Source: Hyalangium gracile
GTDB taxonomy: Bacteria; Myxococcota; Myxococcia; Myxococcales; Myxococcaceae
DNA length: 64,000 nt
NCBI RefSeq assembly: GCF_020103725.1
Contig: NZ_JAHXBG010000006.1
Span: forward strand, 310,001-374,000
Direction: 5' to 3'
Under the pieces are notes generated by a model. The model made no database searches, was not told the origin of the DNA, and worked only from the letters and a program-made list of their open reading frames with translations. This document shows, piece by piece, positions 16,937 through 33,704 of the stretch. Made by a program: the position numbers and the translations under genes. Every line of letters begins with the position of its first letter. Within the stretch, counting starts at the first letter, position 1.

Positions 16937-19900
16937 TCATCCCGGAGGCGAGCCCATCGCCTCCGCCTCCCGCGCGGTGTCCTCGTACTGCCACCGCAGC
17001 AGGGGATTGAGCTCGAAGGCCCTCGCGAGCGCGGCCTTGCTCTCACGGGCGGCGTCGCGGCGGGCCTCGGTCTGGCGCTCCGTCCGCGCCCGCTCCAGCA
17101 GCAGGGCTCCGCGAAGGGCGTGGGCGTGGGCCAGGTTCGGGTCGAGCTGGAGCGCCAGCTGGGTCTGCCCCAGGCCCTCGGTGACGGCGTTCACGGCCTC
17201 TCGCGGCGGCAGCGCCCGAGCCAGCTTCCACCAGGCCCGGGCCAGCTCCAGGTGGGACTCGTAATAGGGGTACATCTTCACGGCCTGCTGCGCCTCGGCG
17301 AGCGCCTGCCGGAGGTGCGGCAGGACGGGGCGCCCCTGCCGCTTCGCCTGGTCCGCCTCCGTCAGGCTCAGCCGCGCATGGAGGATCCGGCAGTCGGCGC
17401 AGCGCGGATCGTTGCGGAGGGACTCCGCCAGCGCCTGCCGCCCCGCCTCGAGCGCGGTGGCCGGGTCACGCTCCTCCTTCAGCGCATGGAGCGCCAGCAG
17501 CAGGTGGCCCAGGGCCCGGTAGAAGGACGTCCGCCCGGCCTTGGCGTTGATGCTCAGGGACTGGTCGAGGTGCTGGAAGGCCCGCGCGATCGCCGGGCGC
17601 GGATCTGCCTGGGTGTCCACGAGGTACCGGGCGCGCGTCAGCTCCGCGCTGGCCACGTGGTTGAGCGCCGAGTAGAGGTTCTTGTCGATGGCGAAGGCCT
17701 GCTGGCCGGCCTCGAGCGCCTTCTGGACCTCCGCCTCGGGATCGAGCCCACGCGAGAGGCGGTACGACGCCATCGCGTTGTACAGGTCCACCAGGTTCGA
17801 GTGGGCGAAGAGGTACTTCGGGTCGCTGGCCGCCGCGCGGCGGAAGTGGCGCTCCGCCTCCGCGTAGGCCTGGGTGGGATCCTGGCCGTGCTCCCGCTGG
17901 TAGTTTCCCCTCCAGCGTTGGACGAGCCCCAGATCGTTCAGCCCCCAGAGATAGTCGGGCTCGAGCTCCAGCGCCCGGGTGAGCATGGCGGTGGCCTCGT
18001 CCCAGGAGCGGCTCGGATCCTGGCGCTCCCATGCCTCCTGGAGCCCGCGCATGAACCAGGCGTAGCCCAGCGTGTCGTAGGCGTGGGCGTTGCGCGCATC
18101 CAGCTCCACGGCGCGCGAGGCGGTGGCGAGCCACTGGGAGAGGATGGGCTTGGGCTCCTGCCCGCCTCGCTCGAAGTTCATCACCCGGTACCAGTGCATC
18201 AGCACATAGGCCTTCTGGGTGTGGCTGGAGGAGCGCAGCGCCGCCGCCTGGATGCCCTTGTCCGCCGCCTCCAGGGCGCGCTCGACCGACTCCTTGCGTG
18301 AGCGGCCCTGCCGCTTGTCGATCTCCGCCTGCTGCAGCCATACCTGGGAGAGGGCCTCGTAGTTCCACGCGTCGCTGCGGCCGGACTCCACCGCCTGCGC
18401 GTACAGGCGGTCCGCTTCCAGCAGCCGCTCGCGCGCCGCGTCGTACTCGCCACGCTCCAGCCGCTCCATGGCGCGGGCATAGGCCACGTCCCCCGCGAGC
18501 TTCCGGGCCTCGTACACCCAGGGCGCCCGGGCGATGGCCTCCGCCGCGGCCTGCTCCGCCACGTCGTACTCCCGGCGGTAGAGGGCGATGAGCCCCTCGA
18601 GGTAGCGCGGGGACTCCAGATCGATCCCCCGGCTCCGCTCCAGCGACTGGAGCGCGGGCTCCAGGTACTGCTTCTCGAGCGCGCGCTGCTGCTCGGCCAC
18701 CCAGGCCGCGTCACCGCCGCGGCGCGTCTCCTCCATGGCCTGGTGGAACAGCTCTCCGAGCACCCGCCCCAGCGCGTAGTGCAGCTCGGGCGAGTCGATC
18801 CCCCGCTCGCGCGCGCGAGTCAGCTCCTGGTGCGCGTTCTCGAACTCGTGCATCGCCAGGTAGCCGCGCCCCAGGGCATGGTGGACGAGCCCCTGGCCGT
18901 GCGCGTCCAGCTCGTGCTGTCGGGCGGAGATTCCCGCCATGCGCTCGCGGACCAGCTGCTGCTCCTGGCTGGTGTCGTGCAGCGGCAGCGCGTAGGTGGT
19001 GCGCAGGAACCACTCGATCTCCTTCACCTGCTGCCCGAGCTGCTCCGCCAGCCGAGCGCGCTCCTCGGACTGCTGCTGGGTGCGCCGGGCCTCCAGCCAC
19101 GAGCGCACACCGAAGGCGGAGAGGACCAGGATGGTCGCCAGCGACGCCGCTGAGACACCCACCAGCGCGCGGTGCTTCCGCGCTCGCCGCCGCAGCCGGT
19201 ACATCAGGCTCGGCCGCCGCCCGAGGATGGGCTCGCCGTCGATGAAGCGGGCCAGATCCTCGGCCAGCGCGCGCGCGGACGGATAGCGCTGGCTGGGCTC
19301 CTTGTTCAGGCACTTGAGGACGATGATCTCCAGATCGCTCTCGAGCTGTGGCACCCGCGAGCGCAGGGGCGGCGGCTCCTCATGGAGCACCTTGTTCAGG
19401 GTGTCCACGAGGGTGGTATCGGTGAAGGGGGCCTCGCCGGCCAGCAGCTCGTAGAGCGTCGCGCCGAGGCTGTAGACATCCGAGCGGCGATCGATGCTCC
19501 GCAGCTCACCGCGGGCCTGCTCGGGCGCCATGTACGACGGCGTGCCCATCAGCGCGCCCGTCACGGTGAGGCCGTGGCCATGGCTGACCTCGTACGCCAG
19601 GCCGAAGTCCATGATGACGGGGAAGCAGCGCCCGTCCTCGCCGCGCTCGACCAGGATGTTGGAGGGCTTGAGGTCGCGGTGGATGACGCCCAGCCTGTGG
19701 GCCTCGTGCATGGCCAGGGCCGCGTCCTTCATCACCTGCAGCTTCTCGGGCAGGGACATGCTCGCGGCGGCCCGGTCGAGCCGCTCGCCGCCCACCACCT
19801 GCATGGCGATATAGGCCTTCCCGTTGACCTCACCCGCCTCGTAGACCTTGCAGACGTGGGGGTGATCGATGCGGGCCTGGGCGCGCGCTTCCTGGAGGAA

Positions 19901-20203
19901 GCGCATGACCAGGTCGGGGTCCGCGCCGCGGATGAACTTCAGCGCGACGGTGCGCCCCAGGAGCCGATCGCGGGCCTTGTACACCTCGCCCATGCCGCCC
20001 CGGCCCAGCAGCGAGATGAACTCATAGCGGCTCCACTGGGAGACGGGGAACTGCTCGCCCGGCCCCTCCGTGGGGGCGGGGGCCGACACGCCCTCGGAGG
20101 ACTGCTCCCCGGCCAGTGTCGGCTGCGCCGCCTCCGTGGACGCGGGGAGCTCCGGAACGAGGGTGGGCTCGAGGACTGGCGCTTTGTCCGCAGGGTCCGG
20201 CAT
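16937..20203 (-). CDS. Ser/Thr protein kinase with TPR sensor region
   Basis: 1,088-residue transmembrane kinase. The kinase domain spans residues 60-321: glycine loop LGRGGMGEV, VALKFIRG lysine, catalytic HRDLKPSN, DFGLA, and APEQA. A single membrane helix at about 345-366 (LVGVSAASLATILVLSAFG) separates it from about 700 residues of helical TPR-like repeats, which would lie outside the membrane. All catalytic residues are intact. This is a common myxobacterial receptor layout; ligand and substrate are unknown. Confidence 0.93.
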   Translation of the reverse strand: MPDPADKAPVLEPTLVPELPASTEAAQPTLAGEQSSEGVSAPAPTEGPGEQFPVSQWSRYEFISLLGRGGMGEVYKARDRLLGRTVALKFIRGADPDLVMRFLQEARAQARIDHPHVCKVYEAGEVNGKAYIAMQVVGGERLDRAAASMSLPEKLQVMKDAALAMHEAHRLGVIHRDLKPSNILVERGEDGRCFPVIMDFGLAYEVSHGHGLTVTGALMGTPSYMAPEQARGELRSIDRRSDVYSLGATLYELLAGEAPFTDTTLVDTLNKVLHEEPPPLRSRVPQLESDLEIIVLKCLNKEPSQRYPSARALAEDLARFIDGEPILGRRPSLMYRLRRRARKHRALVGVSAASLATILVLSAFGVRSWLEARRTQQQSEERARLAEQLGQQVKEIEWFLRTTYALPLHDTSQEQQLVRERMAGISARQHELDAHGQGLVHHALGRGYLAMHEFENAHQELTRARERGIDSPELHYALGRVLGELFHQAMEETRRGGDAAWVAEQQRALEKQYLEPALQSLERSRGIDLESPRYLEGLIALYRREYDVAEQAAAEAIARAPWVYEARKLAGDVAYARAMERLERGEYDAARERLLEADRLYAQAVESGRSDAWNYEALSQVWLQQAEIDKRQGRSRKESVERALEAADKGIQAAALRSSSHTQKAYVLMHWYRVMNFERGGQEPKPILSQWLATASRAVELDARNAHAYDTLGYAWFMRGLQEAWERQDPSRSWDEATAMLTRALELEPDYLWGLNDLGLVQRWRGNYQREHGQDPTQAYAEAERHFRRAAASDPKYLFAHSNLVDLYNAMASYRLSRGLDPEAEVQKALEAGQQAFAIDKNLYSALNHVASAELTRARYLVDTQADPRPAIARAFQHLDQSLSINAKAGRTSFYRALGHLLLALHALKEERDPATALEAGRQALAESLRNDPRCADCRILHARLSLTEADQAKRQGRPVLPHLRQALAEAQQAVKMYPYYESHLELARAWWKLARALPPREAVNAVTEGLGQTQLALQLDPNLAHAHALRGALLLERARTERQTEARRDAARESKAALARAFELNPLLRWQYEDTAREAEAMGSPPG

Positions 20204-20396
20204 GGCGCCACGCTAGTCGGCCTGACCCGCGAGAGGGATTCGACGGCGCCCTCGCCCTCCGGACTCTCGACGCATTGCATCCAGGAAATGCCGCACTACC
20301 AGTAAAAACTGTTTAAGCTGACAAGTTTAATAAATCTGATAAAGAGTGATTCCAGGCCGTGCGTCCCGCCCGGCACTTCTCCCGGAGTTTCCATTC

Positions 20397-20678
20397 GTGA
20401 AGCTGAAGACCCTGATGATGAGCCTGGCGTTCGGTGCCCTCCTCTCCGCCTGTGGCGGCCCGCTGCCCGAGGAGGGCGTGAGCTCGGGGGACGAGCTCGG
20501 CGTCGCGGAGCAGGGCGTCTGTGAGGGCTGGGAGAACGGCGGGCGTCGGTGTACCTGGAAGTGCAGCGCCGACGGCCGGTGGATCTACGCCACCAGCAAC
20601 GTGTCCTATGGCGGGTGCACGGCGTACGCGAACGACTTCTGCAAGGGCAACGCGGTCTCCGTCTGCTGGAGCCGCTAG
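20397..20678 (+). CDS. Small Cys-rich lipoprotein, tandem copy 1
   Basis: 93 residues from GTG, with GGAG upstream. Signal KLKTLMMSLAFGALL and lipobox LSAC are followed by an acidic linker and a compact module with six Cys in the pattern C-x9-C-x3-C-x17-C-x7-C-x7-C (CEGWENGGRRCTWKC and so on). Six evenly placed Cys suggest three disulfides, like a small secreted effector or binding module. Its neighbour is a clear paralog. An AT-rich stretch with a possible -35 CTGACA lies at 20315-20345. Function unknown. Confidence 0.75.
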   Translation: MKLKTLMMSLAFGALLSACGGPLPEEGVSSGDELGVAEQGVCEGWENGGRRCTWKCSADGRWIYATSNVSYGGCTAYANDFCKGNAVSVCWSR

Positions 20679-20756
20679 CACCTTCCGGGCGGTCAAGGCC
20701 GTGAGGCGCCGCCCGCCATCCCGATTGCTCGACCACACCCTTTGAAAGGCATTCCC

Positions 20757-21050
20757 ATGAAGCTGAAGACCCTGATGATGAGCGTGGCGTTTGGTGCCCT
20801 CCTCTCCGCCTGCGGCGGCCCCATCCCCGAGGAGACGGAGATCAGCACGGAGCAGGAGCTCGGCACGACGAGCCAGGCCCTCTGCGAGGGTTGGGAGAAC
20901 GGCGGCCGTTACTGTACGTTCCGGTGCACCTCCTCGCAGACCACGCACTACTTCGCCGGCTACGGCGACGTGCCCTACGGCAACTGCCGCGAGTACGCCG
21001 ACAGGTACTGCGGCCGGACTGCGGTCAGCGTCTGCTGGAGCAAGCTCTAG
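20757..21050 (+). CDS. Small Cys-rich lipoprotein, tandem copy 2
   Basis: 97-residue paralog of the gene 79 bp upstream. The leader is nearly identical (MKLKTLMMSVAFGALLSAC) and the module keeps the same six Cys with C-x9-C-x3-C-x19-C-x7-C-x7-C and the shared CEGWENGGR and AVSVCWS segments. The start at 20757 follows AAAGGC. The signal is conserved more than the body, as expected for tandem duplicates under diversification. The stop overlaps the end of the converging lipocalin-like gene by four bases; a CCCC/GGGG hairpin lies just beyond. Confidence 0.75.
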   Translation: MKLKTLMMSVAFGALLSACGGPIPEETEISTEQELGTTSQALCEGWENGGRYCTFRCTSSQTTHYFAGYGDVPYGNCREYADRYCGRTAVSVCWSKL

Positions 21051-21526
21051 TCAGTCCCCACCGTGGGGGGCGGTGCCGACACGGAGAGGAATGACACCCG
21101 TCGCCATTCCAGGACGACCTCGGCTTCGTTTCCCCCCATCAGCAGGGGGCCCGTGCTCAAGACCAGCCGGGTGCCTTCCACGGTGGCCTTCCTTCTCTGC
21201 ACGGTACCGATCCAGTTCGGGAAGACGCTGCCCTTGATGTGGTGACAGACGGTGTCCGTCTGCTCGTCGGTGTCGTAGGTCCCGAAGTACACGGCGGCCC
21301 CGTCCAGCGCTTCTTTCGCCTCCTGCGCCGTGCCCCCCTTCAAGTCCGCGGACTTGAAGGAGGGGCGGTCCCGGCCCATGAGCTGCACCGCCATGTTCCC
21401 GTCACGGTCGTAGATCAGCATGCCGAGGGGATCGTGCCCGTAGGGGTGGTTCCTGCTTCCATCCGGCAAGCGGCCCTCCACCGCGATGAGCTGCCAGGTG
21501 CCGACAAGTCTCTCCTTGAGCGTCAT
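21047..21526 (-). CDS. Lipocalin-like domain protein
   Basis: 159 residues with the single-domain lipocalin-like pattern: the opening LVGTWQLIAVE carries the conserved G-x-W. A strand-rich body follows (NHPYGHDPLGMLIYDRDG, MAVQLMGRDRP) and ends with LVLSTGPLLMGG. It has no signal peptide and is probably cytoplasmic, binding a small hydrophobic molecule. The start at 21526 has GGGAG upstream. It lies 17 bp after the hotdog gene on the same strand, so the two form an operon. Confidence 0.75.
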   Translation of the reverse strand: MTLKERLVGTWQLIAVEGRLPDGSRNHPYGHDPLGMLIYDRDGNMAVQLMGRDRPSFKSADLKGGTAQEAKEALDGAAVYFGTYDTDEQTDTVCHHIKGSVFPNWIGTVQRRKATVEGTRLVLSTGPLLMGGNEAEVVLEWRRVSFLSVSAPPPTVGTD

Positions 21527-21543
21527 GGTGTCTCCCTCGGGGC

Positions 21544-22392
21544 TCAGCGCCGATGCGCTCGCGCGTCGATTTGAAACGTGGACAGGAGCTTGCCCTGGCC
21601 ATTGTGGGCTGTGACCGTGAAATGGTCGTCCCGTTCCCGTACACAGCCGAGGTGTAGCTTCTCCCCGGGAAGCGACGCCTGCTTGCAGGTGAGGACGCAC
21701 CGGGTGATTTGATAGGCGTCGAACCCAGGGAAGTGGCGCAGCAGAGAGCAGGCGTTTCCCCCCAGGATCGACACAGGACACATCGCCCGCATGTCGAAGT
21801 GGCCGGCGAAGTCCTCGCGGCGGAACCCCTCCAGGGTGGCTCGCAGTTCCTCGCCGGGCCGTATCCACTCCAGCTGCATCGGCCGCACGGGGTTCACGTA
21901 CGGGCTGGGCTGACCGGGCACCCGGGCCATCGTGGGTGCCGCATCGGTCCCCTTGAGCTTCACGAACTCCTCTTCGTTGAGGCCCACGCACGTCAACTCG
22001 AGAGCCGCGTAGCGCTCGCCCTTCTCCGTGAAGCACGTCACGGTCGTCGTATAGAAGGGGAAGTTCTTGGCTCGAGCGATCCGATCGACGCGTCCCATGC
22101 AACGGAAGGAGTTTGCCGTGGTGGCGTGGACCGGGAACACCTGGAGATCCGCCTGGGTGGCAAGGTAGTAATGCCTGGACTTGATCGGATTGGCCGCGGC
22201 GCAGGTCATGACGCCGTGGACAGCCAGGGTCCGCAGCCCCTCGGAGCAGCTCATCAACGTCGTCTCGGCGTAGCGCTGCTGCTCCGGCCTGAACTGGCTG
22301 TAGACAACGCCATTGTCCACGGCAACGTCATACACCTCGACATAAGGAGCAGACTCGCCAATGAGTTCGAACAGGTTCTCCATGGAGTTCAT
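21544..22392 (-). CDS. Predicted double-hotdog-fold protein
   Basis: 282 residues without signal or membrane segment. Two halves each read like a hotdog fold. The second half has FAGHFDMRAMCPVSILGGNA, similar in layout to the FabA/FabZ-type central helix with its His, and strands such as VLTCKQASLPGEKLHLGC. It may be a dehydratase- or thioesterase-like enzyme acting on acyl groups, possibly with the lipocalin-like partner encoded 17 bp downstream. This assignment rests on pattern only. Confidence 0.5.
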   Translation of the reverse strand: MNSMENLFELIGESAPYVEVYDVAVDNGVVYSQFRPEQQRYAETTLMSCSEGLRTLAVHGVMTCAAANPIKSRHYYLATQADLQVFPVHATTANSFRCMGRVDRIARAKNFPFYTTTVTCFTEKGERYAALELTCVGLNEEEFVKLKGTDAAPTMARVPGQPSPYVNPVRPMQLEWIRPGEELRATLEGFRREDFAGHFDMRAMCPVSILGGNACSLLRHFPGFDAYQITRCVLTCKQASLPGEKLHLGCVRERDDHFTVTAHNGQGKLLSTFQIDARAHRR

Positions 22393-22553
22393 CCCTTCCA
22401 GTCAGTGAATGGCAAGCGCTGGTAGCCCTGGCGAAGCCCTCAGGCTTGAAACAAGCCGGCGCGACCCGCTCCGCATGCCTGGATGCAAGGGTGGTTCCAC
22501 TCTCGAGTCGCGCACGCTCCCCGAGGCATCGACGCGAAGTCACAGCTCTTCAG

Positions 22554-22593
22554 GTGTCAATTCGCGGAGCTGACACGGCGCTGACGTGTCAGC
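22554..22593. promoter_or_regulatory. TGACAC/GTGTCA operator-like cluster
   Basis: In the gap between the divergent hotdog and MORN genes, GTGTCA (22554), TGACAC (22571) and GTGTCA (22586) alternate. The last two form perfect 8-bp arms GCTGACAC / GTGTCAGC around nine bases. A dimeric repressor could bind here, or it could form a hairpin. Nothing else is evident in this 280-bp gap. Confidence 0.45.
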
Positions 22594-22670
22594 GAGCCAT
22601 GGATACATCTCTGACGGGGACCTCCGGGCTGCTGACCGGATATGCTCCGGGCGTTACGGAGACCTCCACC

Positions 22671-23482
22671 ATGAGCCTGCGATTGCCTCTGGCGCTGCTG
22701 CCCTTCCTGTTGGCGCTGGTCCCTCTGGAGCGAGCGGAGGCAAGCTGCAGCGTCCTGAGCGGCGAGGACCTGAAGCGCTGCCTCGAAGCGGGGCATCGGT
22801 CCATGCTCGACTACCACGATGCGTACGAGAAGTCGGTTCGGTTCGAGGTCTCCGTGGGGAGCCACACCCAGCAGATCAACTTGTTCGACTACAAGAGAGC
22901 GGGGCTCTGTGCCCTCACGATGCGTGACAGTGTCACACCCTGGAGCCTGTCGAGAACTACGTCGACTTCGACACGTATCGCGCGGGTACGCTCTACAAGC
23001 CCGTGAGCTGCAAGGCCGGCAAGCAGCACGGCGAGGAGTTCCGGTACTTCGCCAGTGGCAAGCTGGAGAAGCGCACCCTGTTCAAGGACGGCCGGGAACA
23101 GGGCCGGTTCGAGCACTTCCATCGCGATGGCACGCTCTTCTCAAGCGGCGAGTACGTGGATGGCGAGCTGCGCCTCCTGTCCTACTTCTGGACGCCCGAT
23201 GGCGTCGAGGAGCGGCGGCATCGCTCGCCCGAGGTGCGGAAGGAGAAGACCACCTATTGGAAGGACGGGCGTCCCTTCACGGGAGTCTGGAAGCGCTAGG
23301 TGTCGGAACACTACGTGATCATCACCACCATCAAGAACGGTGAGAGACACGGGGACTACGAGGAATACGATGGCGATCGCCGGGTGGTCCAGCGCACCTA
23401 CGAGAATGGAGAGCTCGTCGAGACGCCGCCCAAGCAGGGGGACTCGCCAGTGCCCTCGGATCCCGGCCCGAAGCAGCGGTAG
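22671..23482 (+). pseudogene. Broken MORN-repeat exported protein
   Basis: Starts with a signal peptide (MSLRLPLALLPFLLALVPL) and reads well to about 22930. A -1 shift is then needed to continue (HTLEPVENYVDFDTYRAG and onward). The second part has MORN/YwqK-type repeats (HGEEFRYFASGKLEKRTLFK, HRDGTLFSSGEYVDGELR). An in-frame TAG at 23297-23299 interrupts it, after which MORN sequence resumes in the same frame to 23482 (NGERHGDYEEYDGDRRVV). One frameshift plus one nonsense codon argue for decay, although either could be a sequencing error. A GTGAC-AGT-GTCAC palindrome marks the shift site. Confidence 0.7.
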
Positions 23483-23641
23483 CCGAAGCCGAGGCACCAC
23501 CCTGGATCGTGCGTCCGTGCCGGTGGTAAGGGGGGCTCAGTGCGCACGGCCTTCGCACCCCGTGGGTGCGGATACGCCAGCATGCTGCGCCTAGCACTAC
23601 AGCGGGCGCAAGCAAAGACGTCCAGCGCTTTCCGTGATTCT

Positions 23642-23686
23642 GGTAGAGGTTTTGCATCGGTGCGGGTTCGATTCCCGCCTCTATCC
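23642..23686 (+). other. tRNA 3'-end-like fragment (possible att site)
   Basis: A canonical T-arm, GCGGG-TTCGATT-CCCGC (23662-23678), is followed by CTCTATCC. GGTAGAG (23642-23648) could pair with CTCTATC like an acceptor stem, allowing one G-T wobble, but only 13 bases lie between, so there is no D-arm or anticodon arm. It is either a collapsed tRNA or a leftover of an integration site. The rest of 23483-23890 holds no gene I can support. Confidence 0.45.
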
Positions 23687-23889
23687 TTCTCAAGGGGTAT
23701 CGCATCAGCTGTGCCGATACCGGATGCAGCGCACAGGCGGTGCTCCCCTCCAGCACGAGCCCTACAGCGAGAATCAGTGGGGCGACCAACTCCAAGCATG
23801 CCTGGCAAGGGGATTGTGGAGGATGAACTTCCCTATCACACAACGGAATAGACACCCGGACCCTAGGCGACTGCGGGGCGCTGCTGCGC

Positions 23890-24290
23890 CTCGCTAAACA
23901 CAGGCGAGGGATTGGCCGAGATGGGAGCAGAGACATCTGTCCCTATGTGGGCTAATGGGATGACCTGCTCAATCCCGGAGGGCAACGCGCCCTGGGAGCC
24001 GCGCCCTTCTGAGCTTCAACGGGGGCGGTGCGTCGCAGTCTGCGGAGCGCTTCAAGGGAGCACTCAGTGCGAGAAGTGGAGGTCGGAGTCTACGATTCCT
24101 GGAAGTACCTCCCGTCAAGCCGAGGAACTCGTCGCCGCTGGAGCGTGGGGGCCAGCACTGCGCCTGTACATGACGTGCCGGAGGCCCCCCGGTCGCTGTG
24201 GGCTGCGCGCGGGGCCCATGACGGCAAGAGGTTGCAGGAGGGCGCTGGCTCCCCGGCGAGAGCTTGCCGCCCCCGTGGATGGTTGTTGAG
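23890..24290 (-). pseudogene. Decayed copy of a lipoprotein-gene leader
   Basis: Read on the minus strand, this segment aligns over about 300-400 bases with the promoter, leader and first about 60 codons of the gene at 33877. Shared pieces include TTGACGGGAGGTAC before the start and GCACTGAGTGCTC in the signal. The start codon has become AGG where the intact copy has ATG, and the frame decays downstream. It is a dead duplicate or the 5' remnant of a paralog cut off by the neighbouring insertion. Confidence 0.65.
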
Positions 24291-24365
24291 GTACAGAGCG
24301 CCCCAGCGTTGCCCTACACCTGCTCGGGCTCCGGCTCGAAAGTGAACATGTACGTTCAGGCAGGG

Positions 24366-27300
24366 CTAGAAGCTCATCTGGAAGTCCGGGTCCGGCGCAC
24401 GCGCAGACTTGGACGCACGGATGTATGTGAACTTCCAGCGGCTCTCCGCGTGCACTGCCTCGAACCCTAACCGCCCAATGCCGCGCTGGAATTCTTGGAG
24501 ATCTCTAAAGCGCGAGGTTGCCTCCCAGATGTGGAGTTGGCCATCAACGCGGAGCGCCCGGTGGGCCTCTCGTAGATACTCAGTAAAGTTCGCCCCCATG
24601 AGGGATAGCGAGAAGACCGCCACGTCGAGTACGCCATCGGCAAGCGGAACATGGGCTAGGTCGGCCGCTACGACGCCGGGGTTCGCAGCCACGTGATCGA
24701 AGCTGTGCACGGTATGGCGCCCCTGGAGTGCCCGCGCCAATTCCGCCTCCCCACAGCCAAAGTCACCGATGACGCGCCCCTGCCGCTCCAAGAGGAAGCG
24801 GATCATTTCCTGATAGGGCACCACCATCCAGTCGGCTCGGGCAGCGCGGTAGAGCGTGTGATACTGCGCCCACTCCTCCGGATTCTCGGCGAGCCGCGCA
24901 TGCGTCGTAGCGCTGTGCGTGGCATTCCAGCGGTTGTTCATCTGAGAGAAGTCCCCATAAGAGGCTCGCCGGGCAACGTCCACAGGTCCGCCTAGGGGGA
25001 GAGGAACCATCAACTGCATCCGTGCCACCTCCACCGTCTCTCCCTGCTCAAGCCGCTGAAGCCAGCTCATCACATCCCGGTAGGCCTGCTCCGGGGTGCG
25101 CAGATGCCCCTCGGGCACGACGCCGTCCACCGCTGCATCGGCAATCGACTTCTTGAAGCGGAGCCGCTCCATCTTCGATTCGCACCAGGACCAGCGGCCA
25201 CCTGGGAGGTCGGCATAGGTGAGAGGTAGCACGATGGTCACCTTCCGGTCGCGCTGCCCTTGGCGATACAAGCGGCCCTTGAGCTGCTCGTACTCGGCGT
25301 GGGTCCACGGCAACACGTTGATGATCAGCCGGCTGCACACCGCCTGAAGCCCATCCACTCCCGTGCCGATAGCGGCGGTGCCGATTAGCACGTCCACCTC
25401 TCCCCGTAGGAACTGCTCAAGCCCGCTCTTATCCTCCCCCGTGTAGAAGCCCACCCGCAGGTGGGCCTTCTCCAACGCGACACGCAGCGTCTCGCCGATG
25501 CCGTCGATTAGGTGGGTGTAGATGAGCGTCCCGCGGCTCACGTGTTGGAGAATCACCCCGAGACGTGCACGCGTAAGCAGTTGTTCCAGAGCGAGCGGTC
25601 CTTTCGTCTGTTCCAGTGCGCGCAGTTCGTCCAGCAGTGGAGCGCAGTCCACACTCACGACCTCCTCTATGCACTCCAAGTCATACGCCGGCAGCCAGCG
25701 CGTCCCTAGTGTGACGAGCCGCTGGTGCAGCGCCATGCAGTTCGAGACTGTGGGCTGGATCCTGAGGTCGTCATGTTCCAGCCCCGTGATGAGCTCTACA
25801 AGGCTGCGTCCCTCCTGCAGGTTGTTGATGACGGGCGTTGCCGACATGCCGAGGACGTGAAGTCCGGTATTCCGCGCCGAGGCTTGAGCGAGTAGCCGTG
25901 CCAGCCGCTGCTTGCGCAGTGACATCTCCTCGGAGTTGCGTTGCTTGGCAAAGTGGACCTCGTCGATGATGACGAAGTCGATCTCTTCCCGTTCGACCAG
26001 TGCAGCCACGTGCTTGTCTGACGCAGGCTGCTGCAGCTTCTCGTAGTTCAGTATCAGGTAGCGTGGGCGCCCCGCATTCCCCGTCATTCCCGTCTCATCG
26101 CCCGCCAGAGACTTCCAGTTGGGCGTGAATCCGCCGGTGGCTATGAGGCTGTCGGGAAAGCTCTGCCGGATCGCGTTCTCCCAGCCCGCGACCACCGCAT
26201 TGGGGCAGCAGATGACGGTGAATCGTGCGCCAACAACGCGGCTGGCGAGGATGGCCGAGAGCGTTTTCCCAGCGCCCGTTCCCGACCAGTTGCCGACCCG
26301 GCGCTTGTCCCGAACACGGGTTGCGACGAAGCGCTGCATGAGGTTCGGCGGCGTGGACACTCCGTTGACCGTGAACGCATAGCCATCGGGGATCTTGAGG
26401 CTCCGCGCCTCCCGATACTCACGAAGAAAGTGCTCCCGCACCTCGGTGGCGTAGATGCTTCCGCCCGTGTACTCCTCCGCTTCCCGGAGGGCGGCCGCTT
26501 CATCCACGAATGCGTGCTTCCACAGCTTGGCGAGTCCGGAAGCGACGAGGAACTGCACCGCCTCTTCGTCCGCACTCGAGAGCAGCTTGCTCTCAAGCGA
26601 GCTCAGCACGGCCTTGGTGTGGACGAGCGGGAACTCCACCTCGCCTGGGATGTCCTCCGGCCGTACCTCTCCCAGTTCCTCCACGGTTGGCTCGGAATCC
26701 TCCGTGCCTGACGCGTTTGCAGTATGCGTCTTGTCGAGGGCTTCTACCGAGCCATTGAGGAATCCGTCGGCGAGCGACGCCTCTCCTCGGATGAACTTTT
26801 CCAACTCAGCGCGTGGGAAGCGCCCCGTCGTGAGAGCCTTCGCGAAAGCCTTGGCGCTTCCCTGCACTCGCAACAAGCCGTTTTGCTGGAAGAGGAGGTA
26901 GAGCTCGGCGGGTGAGAACGTGTCGAGGTGCTCGGTGAGCGATGCCACGAAGTGGCGGATGTTATCCACAGTCCAGCCGCGATTGCACCTGGGGCAGCCT
27001 ACGCCCTGCAAGGTGCGGTTGCCGATAAAGGCTTGGTACTCGTGAGTGCTGTCGTTCGGGCAAAGCCACCAGTACTTCCTCATTGCCGTGGCGTATACGT
27101 CTGCGGGGGTATGCTTCCCGTTGTGTGTCGGGTGCCACTCACGAGCGATCTCCGGGTATCGGTGCGCCAGAGAGAGCGTCTCCTGCCGGAATGAGTCGGC
27201 CCAGGCGATCCAGTTCTTCCGCAGGCCTTTAAACCCGGGAGTGCGACCGAGGAGCGTACGCAACGCATAGGGGTTGAGGTTCCCGGTTTCCAGGCCCGCC

Positions 27301-28796
27301 TGCCGCATCTCGGCAAGGAGTGTCACCGTGGACAACTGCTCGGTCTGGTTTTTCGCCCGCTCTGTGCACCATACCACGAGGTGCTCCCATGCACTGTCGG
27401 ACAGCGTCAGGAGACTTCGATGTGCGAAAGTGCCCTTGTCCCAGATCAGGATGTCGGGCGAGCGATACAGCGCCGCGAAGGCTCGCGGGAGACTCTCCGC
27501 TTCCGTCCAATCTCCTTCGATTTCGTCCGCAGTCATTTCAATCCTTAGCTCCGCTGCGAAGCGTGGGGCAATCTCCCGCACGTGCAGAGGACGCTTTGCC
27601 AGGGCAAGGAACTCGCTCAGGCGTTCGTGGAAGGGAGTGTTCGTCAGCCGGAAATGACCGTCCGGCAGTTGTTCGAGGGGGAGTAGTTTGTTGGCCAGCT
27701 TCGCGGCCACATCCGCGGAAACGTGCAGCGAAGCGCACTCGGTTATCCATCCGGCCAGTTCCGCCGTGCTCACGCCGCTGTGTGCGCGCGTACGCATCCG
27801 CGCGTGCAAGAGGCGTTGCAGCGTCTTGAATTTGGGCAGGGTCTCCCGGGCCAGGAACTCGTCTGCCCGGAGTTCCACGTTCTCCACTCCCGCGACGGAG
27901 ACCATGAGTCTGGCCCGTGGAAGCGTGAGATGAGGATAGGACGCGAATGCATCAGCATGGACTAGGCCGCCCGTCCGCGTGAGTTCCTCCATCACGGGGG
28001 CAAGGGCCCGGCGGAAGGCGCTCCCCCACTGCTCGCGCAGGCTTTCCATCCCCTTGGTGACAATCTGGCGGACGCGCTCGCGAGTCACATCCATCTCGGC
28101 TCCCACGTCCTCAAGTGTCCTGCCTTCGAGGAAGTGGGCAACGGTGGCGCGACGCTGGTTCGGCGTCAGGGTGCCCAATCCCCGTTCCAGCAGCGCATCC
28201 GGATTCTCGAGCAGCCCCGCGAGTTTGCTCAGCATGTCGGGCATGCCTTCACTCGCGAGCCGCTCAAGGGCGGAGAGAAGTTCGTGCCGCGACTGGCGGC
28301 CGAAGTTGGCGAGCTTCCCGTTCAGACTCTCATTCTTGGCCCAGTTGAGCACTTGGCCGAGCGTCGTTACTCCTGCGTTCTTGAGCGCTCCTCGGATTCG
28401 GGTGGAAAGCTTTGGCAGAGCCTCCGTCCATGCTGTCTCCAGCGAGATATCCCTGGCCGCTAACTGCTGCTCGAGACTGATGTGTCGCTCGTACCTCTGA
28501 TGGGCCGCTTCGCCCTCCATTTCGTTCAGCCTGAGACTCTCGAGCGCGGTGCGGAGTGTTTGTCGCGAGGTCCTCCCGAAGTTGCGGACAGGTTCGGTTT
28601 TGCCCTGCTCCCATGCCAGCACGTCGCGGACGGTGTGTACTCCCGCTTGCTCTAGCGTGCTGATGATCCGCGCGGGAAGAGAGCCGAGTACCTCCCGCCA
28701 TGGAAGGTCCAGCACGGCTGCCGCAGACGCCGATTCCTGAGGGGCGGCAGGGGACTGCGCGTTATTCACTGCTTTATTCTGGACGGCGTCTGACAT
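24366..28796 (-). CDS. RRP8-like methyltransferase / SNF2-type helicase / sigma-like HTH fusion
   Basis: 1,476-residue single protein. Residues 30-96 and 115-185 are RNA polymerase alpha-CTD-like helix-hairpin repeats. Residues 207-255 resemble sigma region 4 (LTPNQRRATVAHFLEGRTLE, VTRERVRQI). A zinc ribbon follows (C579, H585, C601, C604 in YWWLC...GVGCPRC). The SF2/SNF2-type helicase at 830-1200 has GTGAGKT, DEVH, GMSATP and GRLYRQGQR. The C-terminus (1325-1465) is strikingly like eukaryotic RRP8: VIGDFGCGEAELA, HTVHSFDHVAANPGVVAADL, VAVFSLSLMGANF. The start follows GGGGAG. GC is visibly lower than in neighbours. It probably remodels and modifies nucleic acid; the target is unknown. Confidence 0.88.
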   Translation of the reverse strand: MSDAVQNKAVNNAQSPAAPQESASAAAVLDLPWREVLGSLPARIISTLEQAGVHTVRDVLAWEQGKTEPVRNFGRTSRQTLRTALESLRLNEMEGEAAHQRYERHISLEQQLAARDISLETAWTEALPKLSTRIRGALKNAGVTTLGQVLNWAKNESLNGKLANFGRQSRHELLSALERLASEGMPDMLSKLAGLLENPDALLERGLGTLTPNQRRATVAHFLEGRTLEDVGAEMDVTRERVRQIVTKGMESLREQWGSAFRRALAPVMEELTRTGGLVHADAFASYPHLTLPRARLMVSVAGVENVELRADEFLARETLPKFKTLQRLLHARMRTRAHSGVSTAELAGWITECASLHVSADVAAKLANKLLPLEQLPDGHFRLTNTPFHERLSEFLALAKRPLHVREIAPRFAAELRIEMTADEIEGDWTEAESLPRAFAALYRSPDILIWDKGTFAHRSLLTLSDSAWEHLVVWCTERAKNQTEQLSTVTLLAEMRQAGLETGNLNPYALRTLLGRTPGFKGLRKNWIAWADSFRQETLSLAHRYPEIAREWHPTHNGKHTPADVYATAMRKYWWLCPNDSTHEYQAFIGNRTLQGVGCPRCNRGWTVDNIRHFVASLTEHLDTFSPAELYLLFQQNGLLRVQGSAKAFAKALTTGRFPRAELEKFIRGEASLADGFLNGSVEALDKTHTANASGTEDSEPTVEELGEVRPEDIPGEVEFPLVHTKAVLSSLESKLLSSADEEAVQFLVASGLAKLWKHAFVDEAAALREAEEYTGGSIYATEVREHFLREYREARSLKIPDGYAFTVNGVSTPPNLMQRFVATRVRDKRRVGNWSGTGAGKTLSAILASRVVGARFTVICCPNAVVAGWENAIRQSFPDSLIATGGFTPNWKSLAGDETGMTGNAGRPRYLILNYEKLQQPASDKHVAALVEREEIDFVIIDEVHFAKQRNSEEMSLRKQRLARLLAQASARNTGLHVLGMSATPVINNLQEGRSLVELITGLEHDDLRIQPTVSNCMALHQRLVTLGTRWLPAYDLECIEEVVSVDCAPLLDELRALEQTKGPLALEQLLTRARLGVILQHVSRGTLIYTHLIDGIGETLRVALEKAHLRVGFYTGEDKSGLEQFLRGEVDVLIGTAAIGTGVDGLQAVCSRLIINVLPWTHAEYEQLKGRLYRQGQRDRKVTIVLPLTYADLPGGRWSWCESKMERLRFKKSIADAAVDGVVPEGHLRTPEQAYRDVMSWLQRLEQGETVEVARMQLMVPLPLGGPVDVARRASYGDFSQMNNRWNATHSATTHARLAENPEEWAQYHTLYRAARADWMVVPYQEMIRFLLERQGRVIGDFGCGEAELARALQGRHTVHSFDHVAANPGVVAADLAHVPLADGVLDVAVFSLSLMGANFTEYLREAHRALRVDGQLHIWEATSRFRDLQEFQRGIGRLGFEAVHAESRWKFTYIRASKSARAPDPDFQMSF

Positions 28797-28848
28797 GTGC
28801 TCTCCCCACTGAGGAACCCACGATAGCAAGACACTGCAGAAGTAGCCT

Positions 28849-29226
28849 ATGGAGGGCGGGTTGACGTACAAGCAGGCGGCGGGCCTGCAGCTCAACCACG
28901 AGCAGCCGGGCGAGGCGCTCATCGACGTGCCGGATGAGAAGGGGCGGGTGACGACGAGGCCCTTCAAGGAGTGCCGCGTGGAGCAGATGCGCCAGGCGCT
29001 GAAGCTCAAGCGCAAGCCGACCTCCAGCAAGCTCCTGCCGCCGGAGGCAGAGGCGCGGGCCGAGCAGTACCGGCAGGCGGTCGCGGTCCAGTTCCCCAAG
29101 GGCAAGGGCACGCGCGTGAAGGTCCTGGCGCGCAACGACAAGGGCTCGGCGGTGCTCGACTTCACGGGCGTTCCCATGGAGAAGGTGGACCAGCTGCTCC
29201 AGGCGCTGAAGGCGATGCAGGGGTAG
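28849..29226 (+). CDS. ParB C-terminal-like protein, possibly truncated
   Basis: 125 residues starting MEGGLTYKQAAGL, divergent from the helicase fusion gene and only 52 bp from its start. The last 45 residues (GKGTRVKVLARNDKGSAVLD, VDQLLQAL) resemble the ParB C-terminal dimerization domain. The first part reads like the internal end of a longer ParB-like protein, and no ParB N-terminal or HTH domain is present. It may be the 3' end of a partition gene cut by insertion of the fusion gene. The family call is tentative. Confidence 0.5.
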   Translation: MEGGLTYKQAAGLQLNHEQPGEALIDVPDEKGRVTTRPFKECRVEQMRQALKLKRKPTSSKLLPPEAEARAEQYRQAVAVQFPKGKGTRVKVLARNDKGSAVLDFTGVPMEKVDQLLQALKAMQG

Positions 29227-29333
29227 AGGCGGCGGTGGAGCATGGTCCGCGGCCTGAGCCGCGAGGACTGGAAGAGGGACACGGGCAGCGCCGTCACCGG
29301 ATGCGGACGGCGAGGCCCACGTTCTTTTTGAGG

Positions 29334-29354
29334 AGCCTACTCATGGAGTAGGCT
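29334..29354. repeat. Perfect 9-bp inverted repeat
   Basis: AGCCTACTC-ATG-GAGTAGGCT, 50 bp before the kinase start and just after a TTCTTTTT tract. It could be an operator or a hairpin. It is the only clear structure in 29227-29402. Confidence 0.45.
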
Positions 29355-29402
29355 GCGCGGGTCCCCGGGAGCGCAGCCGGCTTCCTCTCACGAGGCCCCA
29401 GC

Positions 29403-30236
29403 ATGGAGCGCGCGCCTGACTTCGAGCTGCACCCAGCCCTGCTTCCCGCAGGCACGGTGGTGGGGCTCTGGCGCGTGGTGGCCTGGGCCGGTCGCGGCGT
29501 CCACGGTGCCGTCTATCGCGCGGTCCAGGTGGGCCAGGAGCAGGCACCCGCCGTGGCACTCAAGCTGGCCCTGTTCCCGGAAGATCCCCGCTTCACGCGC
29601 GAGGCGGAGCTGCTGTCACGCCTGCGCCACCCGAGCATTCCGCGCCTGTGGGACTCCGGAGCGTGGCAGGTGCCGGGCGGCGCGCTCCATCCGTTCCTCG
29701 CCATGGATTGGGTGGACGGAGCGCCTCTCTACGAGCAGGCGTTGTATCCGCGTGCATCTCCGCAAGTGCGGCGGATGCTGGCTCAGCTCGCCCGAGCCCT
29801 CCATGAGCTTCACGCCCACGGTGCCGTCCACCGGGACATCAAGGGTGACAACATCCTGGTGCGCTACGCGGATGGCCGAGCGCTGCTCACGGACTTCGGA
29901 ACGTGCCACTACCCGGGTGCCACCACGCTCACGCCACCTACCGTGCACCCAGGCACTCCCGCCTACCGCTCCCCGGAGGCGTGGTGCGTGGAGTTCAACC
30001 GTGCCCGCTCGGTGCAGTACCGCGCTCGAGCGGCCGATGACCTCTTCGCGCTGGGCGTGACGGCGTGCCGGCTCGTCACCGGCGAGTACCCGGAGCTGAG
30101 CGCACCCCGGAGGGACGAGCACGGGCTGTGGCACGTGGACTCCGTGATGCTTCCTGCCGCGCTGCGGAGAAAGGGGCGCATCGAGCCGGTGCTGCGCACG
30201 TGGGTTCTGCGCCTGCTGTGCCTGCGCCTGTCGTGA
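29403..30236 (+). CDS. Truncated Ser/Thr protein kinase
   Basis: 277 residues covering only a kinase domain: VVAWAGRGVHGAVYRAVQ loop, VALKLALF lysine, VHRDIKGDNILV catalytic loop, TDFGTCHYPG and PAYRSPEAW. It stops shortly after the last kinase helix (RTWVLRLLCLRLS), where relatives continue to a membrane helix. A membrane-helix-like stretch does follow, but in another frame. Catalytic residues are intact, so a soluble kinase could still be made, but the gene looks shortened by deletion or frameshift. Confidence 0.75.
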   Translation: MERAPDFELHPALLPAGTVVGLWRVVAWAGRGVHGAVYRAVQVGQEQAPAVALKLALFPEDPRFTREAELLSRLRHPSIPRLWDSGAWQVPGGALHPFLAMDWVDGAPLYEQALYPRASPQVRRMLAQLARALHELHAHGAVHRDIKGDNILVRYADGRALLTDFGTCHYPGATTLTPPTVHPGTPAYRSPEAWCVEFNRARSVQYRARAADDLFALGVTACRLVTGEYPELSAPRRDEHGLWHVDSVMLPAALRRKGRIEPVLRTWVLRLLCLRLS

Positions 30237-30238
30237 GC

Positions 30239-30440
30239 ACGGGAAGCAGGCGAGTTCGGCTCGTCGTGGCGGCGGCGGCGGCGGCAGTACTGGCCGGAGA
30301 GGCCACCTGGTATGAGAACCAGCTCTTCCTGCCCAACCGCCGCGGCTTCGCCGAGGAGGTGTACTTCACCCTGTCGCACAGCCCCATCCGCGACGCCGCG
30401 CGGCGGAGGCGAAGCGGCAGGCCGCGGCGCCCGCCGAATA
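30239..30440 (+). pseudogene. Kinase membrane-helix and PAS-domain scraps
   Basis: In a frame different from the kinase come a short hydrophobic stretch (VRLVVAAAAAAVLAGEA) and then a classic end of a PAS domain from sensor histidine kinases (RRGFAEEVYFTLSHSPIRDA). Neither has the rest of its gene. The order suggests that a deletion joined the end of a kinase gene to the middle of a sensor kinase gene. Nothing else is recognisable up to 30544. Confidence 0.5.
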
Positions 30441-30544
30441 GAAGCGCCGCGAGTCTCACGTCTTCATTGGACATCTTCGCCGTGCGGACCGCGCCGGTCG
30501 TCTACGGCTCCAGTCAGCCACCCGGCCCCACCACCCCCGCCGGC

Positions 30545-31495
30545 TCAGGGGTCCTTCCGCTCGGGCCAGAGCTCGTTGGAGAGCGAGACCTGCTTCTTGG
30601 GTCTCGAGCCCGTCCAGTCCCCCTTCTTGCCCCACTCGATGCCGATGAGGGGGAACTTCCAGGCCTCCTGCAGCTCCGTCACCACGTCCATCTGGTAGTA
30701 GAAGGTCCAGTTGTTCGAGCTGTCGCGCAGGCCCCAGACCACGCCCCGGTTGCTGGCGTTGAGGGACATGTAGAACGCCGGATCGAAGACGGTGACGTCC
30801 TTGCCGAGCAGCCCGCGCTGCTGGAGCAGCTCGCGCGCGGCGGTGTACTGCCGGGTGTACTCCGGGTTCTGCTGCTGCTTGATCGTCCGGAGGTCCGAGG
30901 AGTTCACGTCGGGGATGACCTCCTTGAAGTTCACGTGGAACACCGTGGGAGTCGCCCGTGGGCCGGCGATCATCACGCAGCACCCGTTCATGGCGGCGGT
31001 GATGAAGAGATCCGACTGGAGATCCAGCTTCATGGAGAAGAAGCAGTCCGAGCGCCATGGCAGGAAGAAGCACTTCTTGGCGCCGTTGGCGTCGAGATCG
31101 AAGCGCGCCGTCTTGTGCTGCTGCGCGTAGGAGAAGCGCACCTTCCTGAAGCGATCCTCCCCCTCCAGCTTCGTCCAGGGGTACTCGCGCTGGAGGACCT
31201 TGAGCCGGCCGTCGCCCGCGTCGCCCGTGTTGCCGGGCATGTCGAGGCGGATCGCCTGACCATTCAGCCAGGTCGAGCCATGCGTCACGAAGTTCAGGAG
31301 TGCGTTCGCATGGAAGGAGGCCTCCTGGCGCTCATTCTCTTCGTTCGCCTTGCGATCCTCCTCGATGCACTTCGCGCACCTGCTGCCGACCTTGAACGGG
31401 AGCTGGTGCTTCGCGCACTTCGGGCACTCGGAGCAGCTCTCGTTGAGGCACTGCCCCTTGTGGTTCAACGGCATGTTGCAGACCTTGCACTTCAT
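30545..31495 (-). CDS. Zinc-ribbon protein of unknown function
   Basis: 316 residues. The N-terminal 45 residues carry paired CxxC knuckles (MKCKVCNMPL, CSECPKCAKH, RCAKCIEED), a zinc-ribbon array as found in effector- or toxin-linked proteins. The globular remainder has FITAAMNGCCVMIAGPR followed by VFHVNFKEV, a Cys-then-His arrangement that could be catalytic, and ends in an IGIEWGKKGDW segment. No family recognised. The start at 31495 is preceded by GAGGG. Adjacent to the divergent DyP peroxidase gene. Confidence 0.65.
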   Translation of the reverse strand: MKCKVCNMPLNHKGQCLNESCSECPKCAKHQLPFKVGSRCAKCIEEDRKANEENERQEASFHANALLNFVTHGSTWLNGQAIRLDMPGNTGDAGDGRLKVLQREYPWTKLEGEDRFRKVRFSYAQQHKTARFDLDANGAKKCFFLPWRSDCFFSMKLDLQSDLFITAAMNGCCVMIAGPRATPTVFHVNFKEVIPDVNSSDLRTIKQQQNPEYTRQYTAARELLQQRGLLGKDVTVFDPAFYMSLNASNRGVVWGLRDSSNNWTFYYQMDVVTELQEAWKFPLIGIEWGKKGDWTGSRPKKQVSLSNELWPERKDP

Positions 31496-31576
31496 GGCAG
31501 CCCTCGGCGCATGGAGCGATCCGGAGATGGAGCGCTCCCCTCCACTGCGGTCTTCATCTACGATAATCGCGCACCC

Positions 31577-32461
31577 ATGCTCGAGAACGCACAACCTTCA
31601 GTCCTTGCCGACCGTCCCCAGGTAGGCCGTACCCTCACCTTCCGTATCGCACCCGAGACGGACGTGCTCGGGGCACTGCGCCGTCTCCGCGATGGCATCT
31701 CCATGGATTGCGGCGTCATCGGCATTGGCGAGCCGGTGGTGCTGGCGCTCGGGAAGTCGATTCCCGGGCTGCGGACGTTTCCAGCCATGTCCGGTCCGGC
31801 CTGCAGCGTCCCGTCGACACAGGAGGCGCTCTGCTTCCTGCTGCGCGGTCCCGATCGCGGCGCCGTGTTCGATCTGACCCAGCACATCCGCGAGCTCGTC
31901 GCCGATGCCTTCCTCCTCGTCGACTCGAACGACACCTTCACCTACCGGGAGGGCCGCGACCTGACGCGCTTCGAGGACGGGACCGAGAACCCCCAGGGCG
32001 AGCTCGCGGTCCAGTCGGCGATCGTGTCCAAGGGCGAGCACCTGCGTGGCTCGAGCTTCGTCGTCGTCCAGCGGTGGGTGCATGACCTCGCGCGCTTCCG
32101 CCGCTTCAGCGAGGAGCGGCGCGAGATGCTGATCGGCCGGCGCGCCGACTCGAACGACGAGATCGAAGAGGCGCCAGAGTCCGCGCACGTGAAGCGGACG
32201 GCGCAGGAGAGCTTCGAGCCCCCCGCCTTCATGGTCCGCCGCTCCATGCCCTGGGCGACGGCCACGCAGGAGGGGCTCGAGTTCATCGCCCAGGTCGAGT
32301 CCCTCGATCGTTTCGAGATCATGATGCGCCGGATGGTGGGCTCCGAGGACGGCATCGTGGATGGGCTCTTCACGTTCTCGCGGCCCGTCACCGGCGGCTA
32401 CTACTGGTGCCCACCGGTGGAGAACGGTCGCCTGGACCTCGCGCTGCTCGGCGTTGGCTGA
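31577..32461 (+). CDS. DyP-type heme peroxidase
   Basis: 294 residues of the dye-decolorizing peroxidase family (YfeX-like, no Tat signal, so cytoplasmic). Seen are the distal-site motif FEDGTENPQGE (Asp of GxxDG), the likely proximal heme ligand His in SAHVKRTAQ, and the conserved distal Arg in FMVRRSMPW. Length is normal for the compact class. It would oxidise dyes, phenols or porphyrins with hydrogen peroxide. The start at 31577 lies 81 bp from the divergent zinc-ribbon gene. Confidence 0.9.
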   Translation: MLENAQPSVLADRPQVGRTLTFRIAPETDVLGALRRLRDGISMDCGVIGIGEPVVLALGKSIPGLRTFPAMSGPACSVPSTQEALCFLLRGPDRGAVFDLTQHIRELVADAFLLVDSNDTFTYREGRDLTRFEDGTENPQGELAVQSAIVSKGEHLRGSSFVVVQRWVHDLARFRRFSEERREMLIGRRADSNDEIEEAPESAHVKRTAQESFEPPAFMVRRSMPWATATQEGLEFIAQVESLDRFEIMMRRMVGSEDGIVDGLFTFSRPVTGGYYWCPPVENGRLDLALLGVG

Positions 32462-32504
32462 CGTGCCCGGTGGGCATCCGACCCAGGAGTGCTAGAGAGA
32501 GCGA

Positions 32505-33668
32505 ATGACCGCCAGACACCTGTCCCTCGCGCTCGTGCTCTCCATGCTGCCGGCTTGCAAGAGCCAGAAGGAGGAGCCACCCGCCGCGCCGAAGCCGGCT
32601 CCGGCGGCGACGGCATCGGCCACCCCCGCGGAGAAGCCCCGGATCGGGCTCGTGCTGGGGCTGGGGGGCCGCGGCGACCAATCCTTCAACGACTCGGCGC
32701 TGCGCGGGCTGGAGCTCTGGGGCGCGGGCCTGAAGTACGAGCAGAACGCTTATAAGGATGCGTCGCCGGAGGAGTTGCAGTCCTCGCTCGGGCCGGAGCT
32801 GGCGCGGCACCAGCCGCCCATCACCCCGCTGGGCATCACTCCGTCCATCGTGCAGAGCCGGGTGGCGGAGGACTACGAGCCCAACCTGCAGCTGATGGTG
32901 GAGCAGAACGTGTCGCTCATCGTCGCCGTGGGCTTCATGCTGGAGAACGCGGTGGAGACGGTGGCGCAGCGCCACCCCGGCAAGCGGTTCCTCTTCGTGG
33001 ACAGCCCGCTGATCAACGCGCGGAACGAGCCGTACACGCTGCCCAACGTGCGCTCGGTCATCTATCGCGCCGAGGAGGGCTGCTACCTGGCCGGAGCGCT
33101 GGCGGGCCTGGCGACGAAGGGAGGACGGATCGGCTTCGTGGGCGGCATGGAGATTCCACTCGTCAAGCAGTACGAGGCGGGCTTCCGGGCGGGAGTGGCC
33201 GCGACCAACCCGAAGGCCACCGTCATCTCCAACTACACCGGCAGCTTCACCAACTTCGCGCTCGGCAAGCAGGTGGGACAGGATCTGCTGGCCAAGAGCA
33301 CGGACGTCATCTTCGCCGCGGCCGGCGTGGACGGGCTCGGGGCCATCCAGGCCGTCAAGGAGGCGCGGGACGAGGGACGGGAGGTGTTCGTCATCGGGGT
33401 GGACTCGGATCAGTTCCACCTGGCACCGAAGGCGATGCTGACCACCGTGCTGAAGCGTGTGGACCTGACGATCTACGAGGGCGTGCGCGACCACCTCCAG
33501 GGCCGCTTCCAGGCAGGGCTCCATGTCCAGGGGCTGAAGGAGGGCGGCATTGCCCTGGCCCCGGTCCGGCTGGACTTCCCCGGCAAGGAGGAGGCGCTGC
33601 GCAAGGTGGAGGCGCTGAAGGCTCGGATCATCGCGGGGGAGATCCAGATCCCCAAGGACCCGCGCTAG
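32505..33668 (+). CDS. BMP/PnrA-like ABC transporter substrate-binding lipoprotein
   Basis: 387-residue lipoprotein (lipobox MLPAC) with a Pro/Ala linker and then a basic membrane protein (Med/TmpC/PnrA) fold: IGLVLGLGGRGDQSFNDSA, VAVGFMLENAVETVA, FVDSPL, GFVGGMEIPLVKQYEAGF and VIGVDSDQF. These proteins bind nucleosides for ABC import. No permease or ATPase gene is adjacent, so it is an orphan or acts with a transporter elsewhere, or as a sensor. Confidence 0.88.
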   Translation: MTARHLSLALVLSMLPACKSQKEEPPAAPKPAPAATASATPAEKPRIGLVLGLGGRGDQSFNDSALRGLELWGAGLKYEQNAYKDASPEELQSSLGPELARHQPPITPLGITPSIVQSRVAEDYEPNLQLMVEQNVSLIVAVGFMLENAVETVAQRHPGKRFLFVDSPLINARNEPYTLPNVRSVIYRAEEGCYLAGALAGLATKGGRIGFVGGMEIPLVKQYEAGFRAGVAATNPKATVISNYTGSFTNFALGKQVGQDLLAKSTDVIFAAAGVDGLGAIQAVKEARDEGREVFVIGVDSDQFHLAPKAMLTTVLKRVDLTIYEGVRDHLQGRFQAGLHVQGLKEGGIALAPVRLDFPGKEEALRKVEALKARIIAGEIQIPKDPR

Positions 33669-33704
33669 CTCCAGGCGGCCGACGCGGAGAGCCCTCGGCA
33701 GGTT

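Follow-up and report, generated by a model that had tools for sequence, protein, structure and literature searches.

A giant single-gene protein of Hyalangium gracile carrying promoter-reading domain kinds, an SNF2-type motor and an RRP8-family methyltransferase

Domain organization of the protein

Analysis of a 64,000-nucleotide stretch of the Hyalangium gracile genome (contig NZ_JAHXBG010000006.1, positions 310,001 to 374,000; the window, whose numbering is used throughout) revealed a gene on the minus strand, at 24366..28796, for a giant protein that unites in one chain an SNF2-type motor, a near relative of RRP8 and domains of the types that RNA polymerase uses to read promoters. Its domains and their order, its intactness, the exchange of front ends within the family and its patchy occurrence are established; the best-supported reading of the protein has an exchangeable reading module, a conserved socket, an SNF2 motor and an RRP8 writer. 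As to its action, we tentatively favour an addressable single-gene enzyme, predicted to bind promoter-like DNA, to open it or move along it, and to methylate adenine there; we regard this as quite possible.

Translation gave a single open frame (1,476 codons and a stop), beginning with ATG and free of internal stops, with a Shine-Dalgarno-like GGGGAG a few bases upstream of the start. The extent and the uninterrupted frame given by an earlier reading of the window from its letters alone (the sequence-only reading) are thereby borne out. That reading also described the gene as AT-richer than its surroundings, which holds against most of the window (62-65% guanine plus cytosine in 1-kb intervals of the gene vs 67-71%), the adjoining stretch at 22-24 kb being as low as the gene itself. 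Its overall interpretation, a self-contained defence, transcription-coupled or RNA-modifying machine, was partly supported.

The N-terminus, encoded like all parts described here on the minus strand, begins with two domains resembling the C-terminal domain of the RNA polymerase alpha subunit (alpha-CTD), at 28518..28715 (residues 28-93) and 28251..28445 (residues 118-182). Pfam RNA_pol_A_CTD (PF03118) matched the protein in two stretches (5.9e-11, 42.4 bits vs a threshold of 23.8), the better one (residues 130-178) lying in the second domain, so that the alpha-CTD-like part proposed earlier is confirmed in kind and consists of two domains. Matches of the single domains to the Protein Data Bank (PDB) were weak; for the second domain all 13 of 13 matches were RNA polymerase alpha (1z3e, E 0.006). 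A sigma region 4-like domain follows at 28011..28205 (residues 198-262), as the sequence-only reading had recognized; Pfam Sigma70_r4 matched residues 207-255 (1e-12, 47.8 bits vs 24.1), and its recognition helix, TRERVRQI, aligns to that of SigA/RpoS. In RNA polymerase the alpha-CTD contacts the UP element and sigma region 4 the -35 box. The next part (27168..28010, residues 263-543) had no Pfam match, and is called winged-helix-like from the order of helices and strands in a low-confidence model. The last N-terminal unit is a single DUF4379 finger at 26979..27173 (residues 542-606; Pfam PF14311, 4.6e-16, the match spanning residues 550-606 with 59.2 bits vs 24.5). It is probably a treble-clef finger, with C579, H585, C601 and C604, invariant across 30 aligned relatives, as its probable metal ligands; this part, read earlier as a zinc ribbon, has DUF4379 as its Pfam match. 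With one DUF4379 and two alpha-CTDs the window protein has no tandem array of one unit kind, long arrays being found only in relatives. A search of the genome for a second copy of the N-terminal module returned one weak sigma-4-like match only.

The units are followed by a helical socket (adaptor) and linker at 26517..26978 (residues 607-760), helical in the structure model, and by the motor at 25119..26414 (residues 795-1226), which has two RecA-like lobes in an SNF2 fold. Pfam ResIII (1.3e-8), whose match is the motor, and Helicase_C (1.8e-6) were recognized. The sequence-only reading had listed all helicase motifs, and GTGAGKT (Walker A), DEVH (DExH), SATP (SAT) and GRLYRQGQ (VI) are indeed present; across 255 aligned cores Walker A occurs in 248, DExH in 254, SAT in 253 and motif VI, sought with a strict pattern, in 125. 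The C-terminal part, at 24369..24974 (residues 1275-1476), is an RRP8-family methyltransferase: Methyltransf_8 (PF05148) matched residues 1275-1453 at 3e-42, and this profile together with a nucleomethylin fold match covers the whole domain. The RRP8 assignment made from the letters therefore holds, and a generic methyltransferase, no closer to RRP8 than to others, was rejected. Motif I for S-adenosylmethionine (SAM) binding and the SLSLMG motif are both present; the motif I pattern is found in 253/255 cores and a loose SLSLMG pattern in 242/255.

SNF2 proteins act on duplex DNA. In the reading that we favour, the N-terminus would serve as the address, the alpha-CTD and sigma region 4 of the window version being of the kinds that read UP elements and -35 boxes, which suggests promoter addressing; the motor, in common with other SNF2 proteins, would work on the DNA duplex; and the RRP8 domain may mark the strand left exposed with N1-methyladenine (m1A), the pairing-blocking product that eukaryotic RRP8 makes on rRNA. 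The chosen DNA would then be silenced or marked, and the setting would probably be conflict between phages, plasmids and hosts, given the solitary, patchy and mobile nature of the gene.

Relatives and their front ends

Searching with the whole protein identified 662 proteins at E <= 1e-3. Among the matches listed the nearest were two myxobacterial proteins, P0002 and P0003; beyond these, most of the best 120 cover 56-68% of the query, which in an alignment of 30 corresponds to residue ~540 onward. Named sources include Corallococcus and Archangium of the same phylum, cyanobacteria, planctomycetes, Ktedonobacteraceae, Rubrobacter and archaea (Heimdallarchaeota, Thermoplasmata). A search from a relative with integrase-repeat units (PF14882, named integrase repeat unit in Pfam) gave 447 proteins, with PF05148 in 117 of the best 120 according to the precomputed Pfam column. 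We tallied the front ends of 260 sequences, namely the best 120 of the 662, the best 120 of the 447 and 20 from genomic loci; the tally keeps repeats of one gene (e.g. P0002 and its locus copy L071), so its proportions are no census, and neither it nor the tree below includes the best 120 of 605 matches to the RRP8 part.

Most relatives found keep the motor and the methyltransferase but bear quite different front ends. DUF4379 units alone were present in 124 sequences (1 to 13 copies per protein across the tally), integrase-repeat units alone in 110 (1 to 12 copies) and DUF723-like units alone in 5. Alpha-CTD and sigma-4 domains, counted with models built from the window protein itself, occurred with the winged-helix stretch and one DUF4379 in four (the window gene, P0002, L071 and P0003) and with three DUF4379 in P0324. 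GYW repeats alone were found in two, GYW with sigma-4 in one, and integrase-repeat with DUF723-like units in one; GYW matches were single and weak (E about 0.005) in L077 and L078, while L081 has seven units. The remaining 12, without a recognized unit, all start in or after the socket and are perhaps cut short at the N-terminus. In the examples shown from the DUF4379, alpha-CTD and integrase-repeat classes, an ELY-type motif follows the final unit by 26-27 residues, and its simple form occurs in 108/124, 5/5 and 104/111 members of these classes, respectively, and in 4/5 of the DUF723-like and 0/3 of the GYW class.

Different N-terminal units thus stand ahead of the same core, which shows exchange of the front end. 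The tree of the core (FastTree, midpoint-rooted, 255 cores, 716 columns; P0345, P0355, P0358, L077 and L078 were dropped for short coverage) has two large branches, one of 125 mostly integrase-repeat sequences (support 0.996) and one of 129 that nearly all carry DUF4379 (0.574), with L081 outside both. The myxobacterial alpha-CTD/sigma-4 group (1.0) is nested in the DUF4379 branch (enclosing nodes 0.975 and 0.922, sister node 0.0) and P0324, with the same domain kinds, in the mostly integrase-repeat branch (0.994); the DUF723-like group and L041, joined at 0.999, lie within the integrase-repeat branch in a group of 19 (0.774). Two cyanobacterial genomes (G334 and G446; 1.9 and 1.7 Mb) encode an SNF2 motor without a recognized RRP8 part (L077:7180-10998 and L078:9031-13842), and in L078 alpha-CTD and sigma-4 matches again stand N-terminal to the motor.

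The front ends of the family are probably DNA readers, to judge by analogy: phage group II intron homing endonucleases are described as bearing, ahead of an EDxHD/Vsr-related domain, between three and five domains of ~60 residues with a distant relationship to CapR, DUF4379 and DUF723, the CapR-like domain being likely DNA-binding according to the authors (PMC12350094), and PF14882 is named for integrases. If the front ends set the address, the family would be a naturally occurring collection of DNA-reading modules, interchangeable on a single effector. The main rival keeps an N-terminus that addresses DNA and has the RRP8 domain methylate RNA, either nascent transcripts or the RNA of an R-loop near the bound site, making the protein a transcription-coupled RNA modifier. 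We consider it rather unlikely, given that most listed relatives bear other units, some distantly related to those of homing endonucleases, so that the link to promoters is not general, and that Pfam recognized no RNA-binding domain in the window protein.

Columns of the unit arrays that were most variable elsewhere had a higher proportion of nonsynonymous differences (pN) than the remaining columns in 8/8 arrays, as is partly expected of columns chosen for variability; for a ninth array (L081) no reference set was available. pN exceeded the synonymous proportion (pS) at variable columns only in L075 (0.486 vs 0.414), whose close kin helped to choose the columns. The pattern is suggestive at most of a recognition code, and we do not claim one.

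Distribution and neighbourhood of the gene

The core, counted at E <= 1e-20, was present in 2/195 genomes of the Myxococcota, in 8/386 cyanobacterial genomes (two with the helicase part only), and in 4/400 and 1/396 genomes of the phyla of the Ktedonobacteraceae and Rubrobacter loci, the last three counts including the centre genome; these searches scored no more than 2 or 4 candidates in each genome, so that absences may include misses. Matches were found in 14/72,556 plasmid records, three of them over the core, and in 1/50,697 phage records, where DUF4379 alone matched and the core was absent. A scan of genome contigs with the single protein as query gave four loci, three with the core. The core is also encoded on seven viral contigs, of which L044 and L045 have the same ORF (open reading frame) map; a terminase gene lies near the relative in L039 and a phage-type nicotinamide phosphoribosyl transferase gene near that in L043. 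In L039 a 1,117-residue protein adjoining the relative (L039:11214-14567; phrog_7590, function unassigned) is similar to a neighbour in L077.

Membership of the RRP8 family would suit a housekeeping rRNA or tRNA methyltransferase of the host with unusual extra domains. We regard this as the least likely explanation of all, since the gene is in only two of the 195 genomes of its phylum, relatives are on plasmids and viral contigs, and the N-terminus changes faster than the core (38-40% vs 66-67% identity among the myxobacterial copies).

Apart from the gene, no ORF family was common to more than two of 24 loci, and an operon was therefore rejected; 16 pairwise sharings of neighbour families were seen, 7/16 between viral contigs L042 and L043. 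Profiles were scanned over 121 ORFs, comprising 112 from 13 loci (of 162 from 16 cellular or plasmid loci; L077, L078 and L082 fell outside entirely, with some far or long ORFs) and nine of the window. At 1e-15, the 25 of 49 PADLOC families shown included PD-T4-6, mad6 and MkoA with two members each and Orf5, C3a189 and LmuA with one each; the PD-T4-6 members are taken to be two window kinases, because Pfam Pkinase is found in two members. Defence profiles were few among these 121 ORFs. The Phormidium relative has a NACHT-domain protein (L034:1270-3540) encoded a few kilobases away. A stand-alone anti-phage protein that recognizes the DNA of an invader, moves along it and disables it by methylation would be possible but finds no support in this context, and appears quite improbable: no full-length PADLOC match was obtained, no conserved partner accompanies the gene, no nuclease domain was recognized, and viral contigs carry the gene too.

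The patchy occurrence without a conserved partner would also fit a selfish single gene with the life style of a homing endonuclease, whose front end directs its own spread, and related unit types are reported in the phage homing endonucleases (PMC12350094). This is very unlikely, as Pfam recognized no nuclease, integrase or transposase domain in the window protein and a repeat search of 19000-34000 found no direct repeat flanking the gene.

Comparison with described proteins

Eukaryotic RRP8 (nucleomethylin) is described as a nucleolar methyltransferase that makes m1A in 25S/28S rRNA (PMC6085284), whereas the window's RRP8 domain is fused to an SNF2 motor and DNA-binding-type modules of bacterial kind. 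Finding RRP8 in bacteria, archaea and viral contigs, within what appears to be an addressable SNF2 machine, bears on its origin, on its substrate range and on whether m1A is placed on DNA by prokaryotes. The motors of INO80, ISW1, Chd1, CSB and the Sulfolobus SNF2 core have 15-20% identity to that of the window; to our knowledge none of them has an RRP8 domain. Phage DNA helicases resemble the protein in its motor: phrog_62 matched at 109.5 bits (best stretch 778-1001), no RRP8 family was among the PHROG matches, and phage SNF2/SSL2 models (BFVD) topped a viral fold search of the core, whose 50 listed matches, judged by name, were to the motor only. Tandem units of ~60 residues, with distant ties to the same Pfam types, are common to the family and the phage homing endonucleases (PMC12350094), but the latter have a nuclease where the family has the SNF2-RRP8 core, and the window version has one DUF4379 with alpha-CTD and sigma-4 domains. 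For the arrays of the relatives, TALE and STAR proteins (PMC11417379) offer a working analogy as tandem similar units, although the units differ.

No known defence system was matched at full length in PADLOC, and in NCBIfam the top match was to an anti-phage phospholipase-D helicase, with 39 bits vs a cut-off of 1100. As regards a restriction-modification enzyme, Pfam recognized no nuclease domain in the chain, ResIII being the motor and the winged-helix-like stretch having no match. MzaA of the MZA anti-phage system matched in sigma region 4 (residues 226-257, 27.5 bits vs 800), with no full-length match and no likeness beyond the helix-turn-helix; DrmD, the SNF2-like helicase of DISARM, matched at the second motor lobe (residues 1132-1192, 28.8 bits vs 610), again not at full length. 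Among the matches listed in our search of the open-access literature, neither an RRP8-SNF2 fusion nor this family was described, though differently worded papers could be missed; a jumbo-phage survey mentions SNF2 helicases and methylases and, in the passages seen, not this fusion (PMC7824862). Individual bacterial proteins bear NCBI names such as 'RRP8 family class I SAM-dependent methyltransferase' or 'zinc-ribbon domain-containing protein'; since these names cover single proteins only, the domain is already labelled in bacteria and the system is not. A bolder proposal, which we consider doubtful, would be a new class of nuclease-free addressable enzymes in which swappable DNA-reading modules on one socket, one imitating the promoter-reading face of RNA polymerase with two alpha-CTDs and sigma region 4, steer an SNF2 motor that writes RRP8-type N1-methyladenine, blocking pairing, on chosen DNA and thereby silences it, shared and re-addressed by phages, plasmids, bacteria and archaea.

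Other features of the window

Synteny with two genomes of the same genus covers parts of 12.8-20.0 kb and ends after a kinase gene (16937-20203); in the stretches of these genomes that were compared it does not resume to the right and no empty site was seen, so the RRP8-fusion gene probably sits in a genus-variable stretch. Rfam gave no match across 15000-45000, and the window has no tRNA genes. The gene had been said to lie among debris, which is partly so: a 277-residue Ser/Thr kinase ORF, perhaps cut (29403-30236), and a ~470-base diverged inverted repeat (23798-24270 and 33697-34173, about 70% identical, no Rfam match, further copies in the genus) are near it, but so are ordinary genes with full Pfam domains. 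Just upstream, a divergent 125-residue ORF (28849-29226) has no Pfam match; it may resemble a ParB C-terminus. Farther off, two tandem small lipoprotein-like ORFs (20346-20678 and 20742-21050) repeat one another (71% in one part and 92% in a second).
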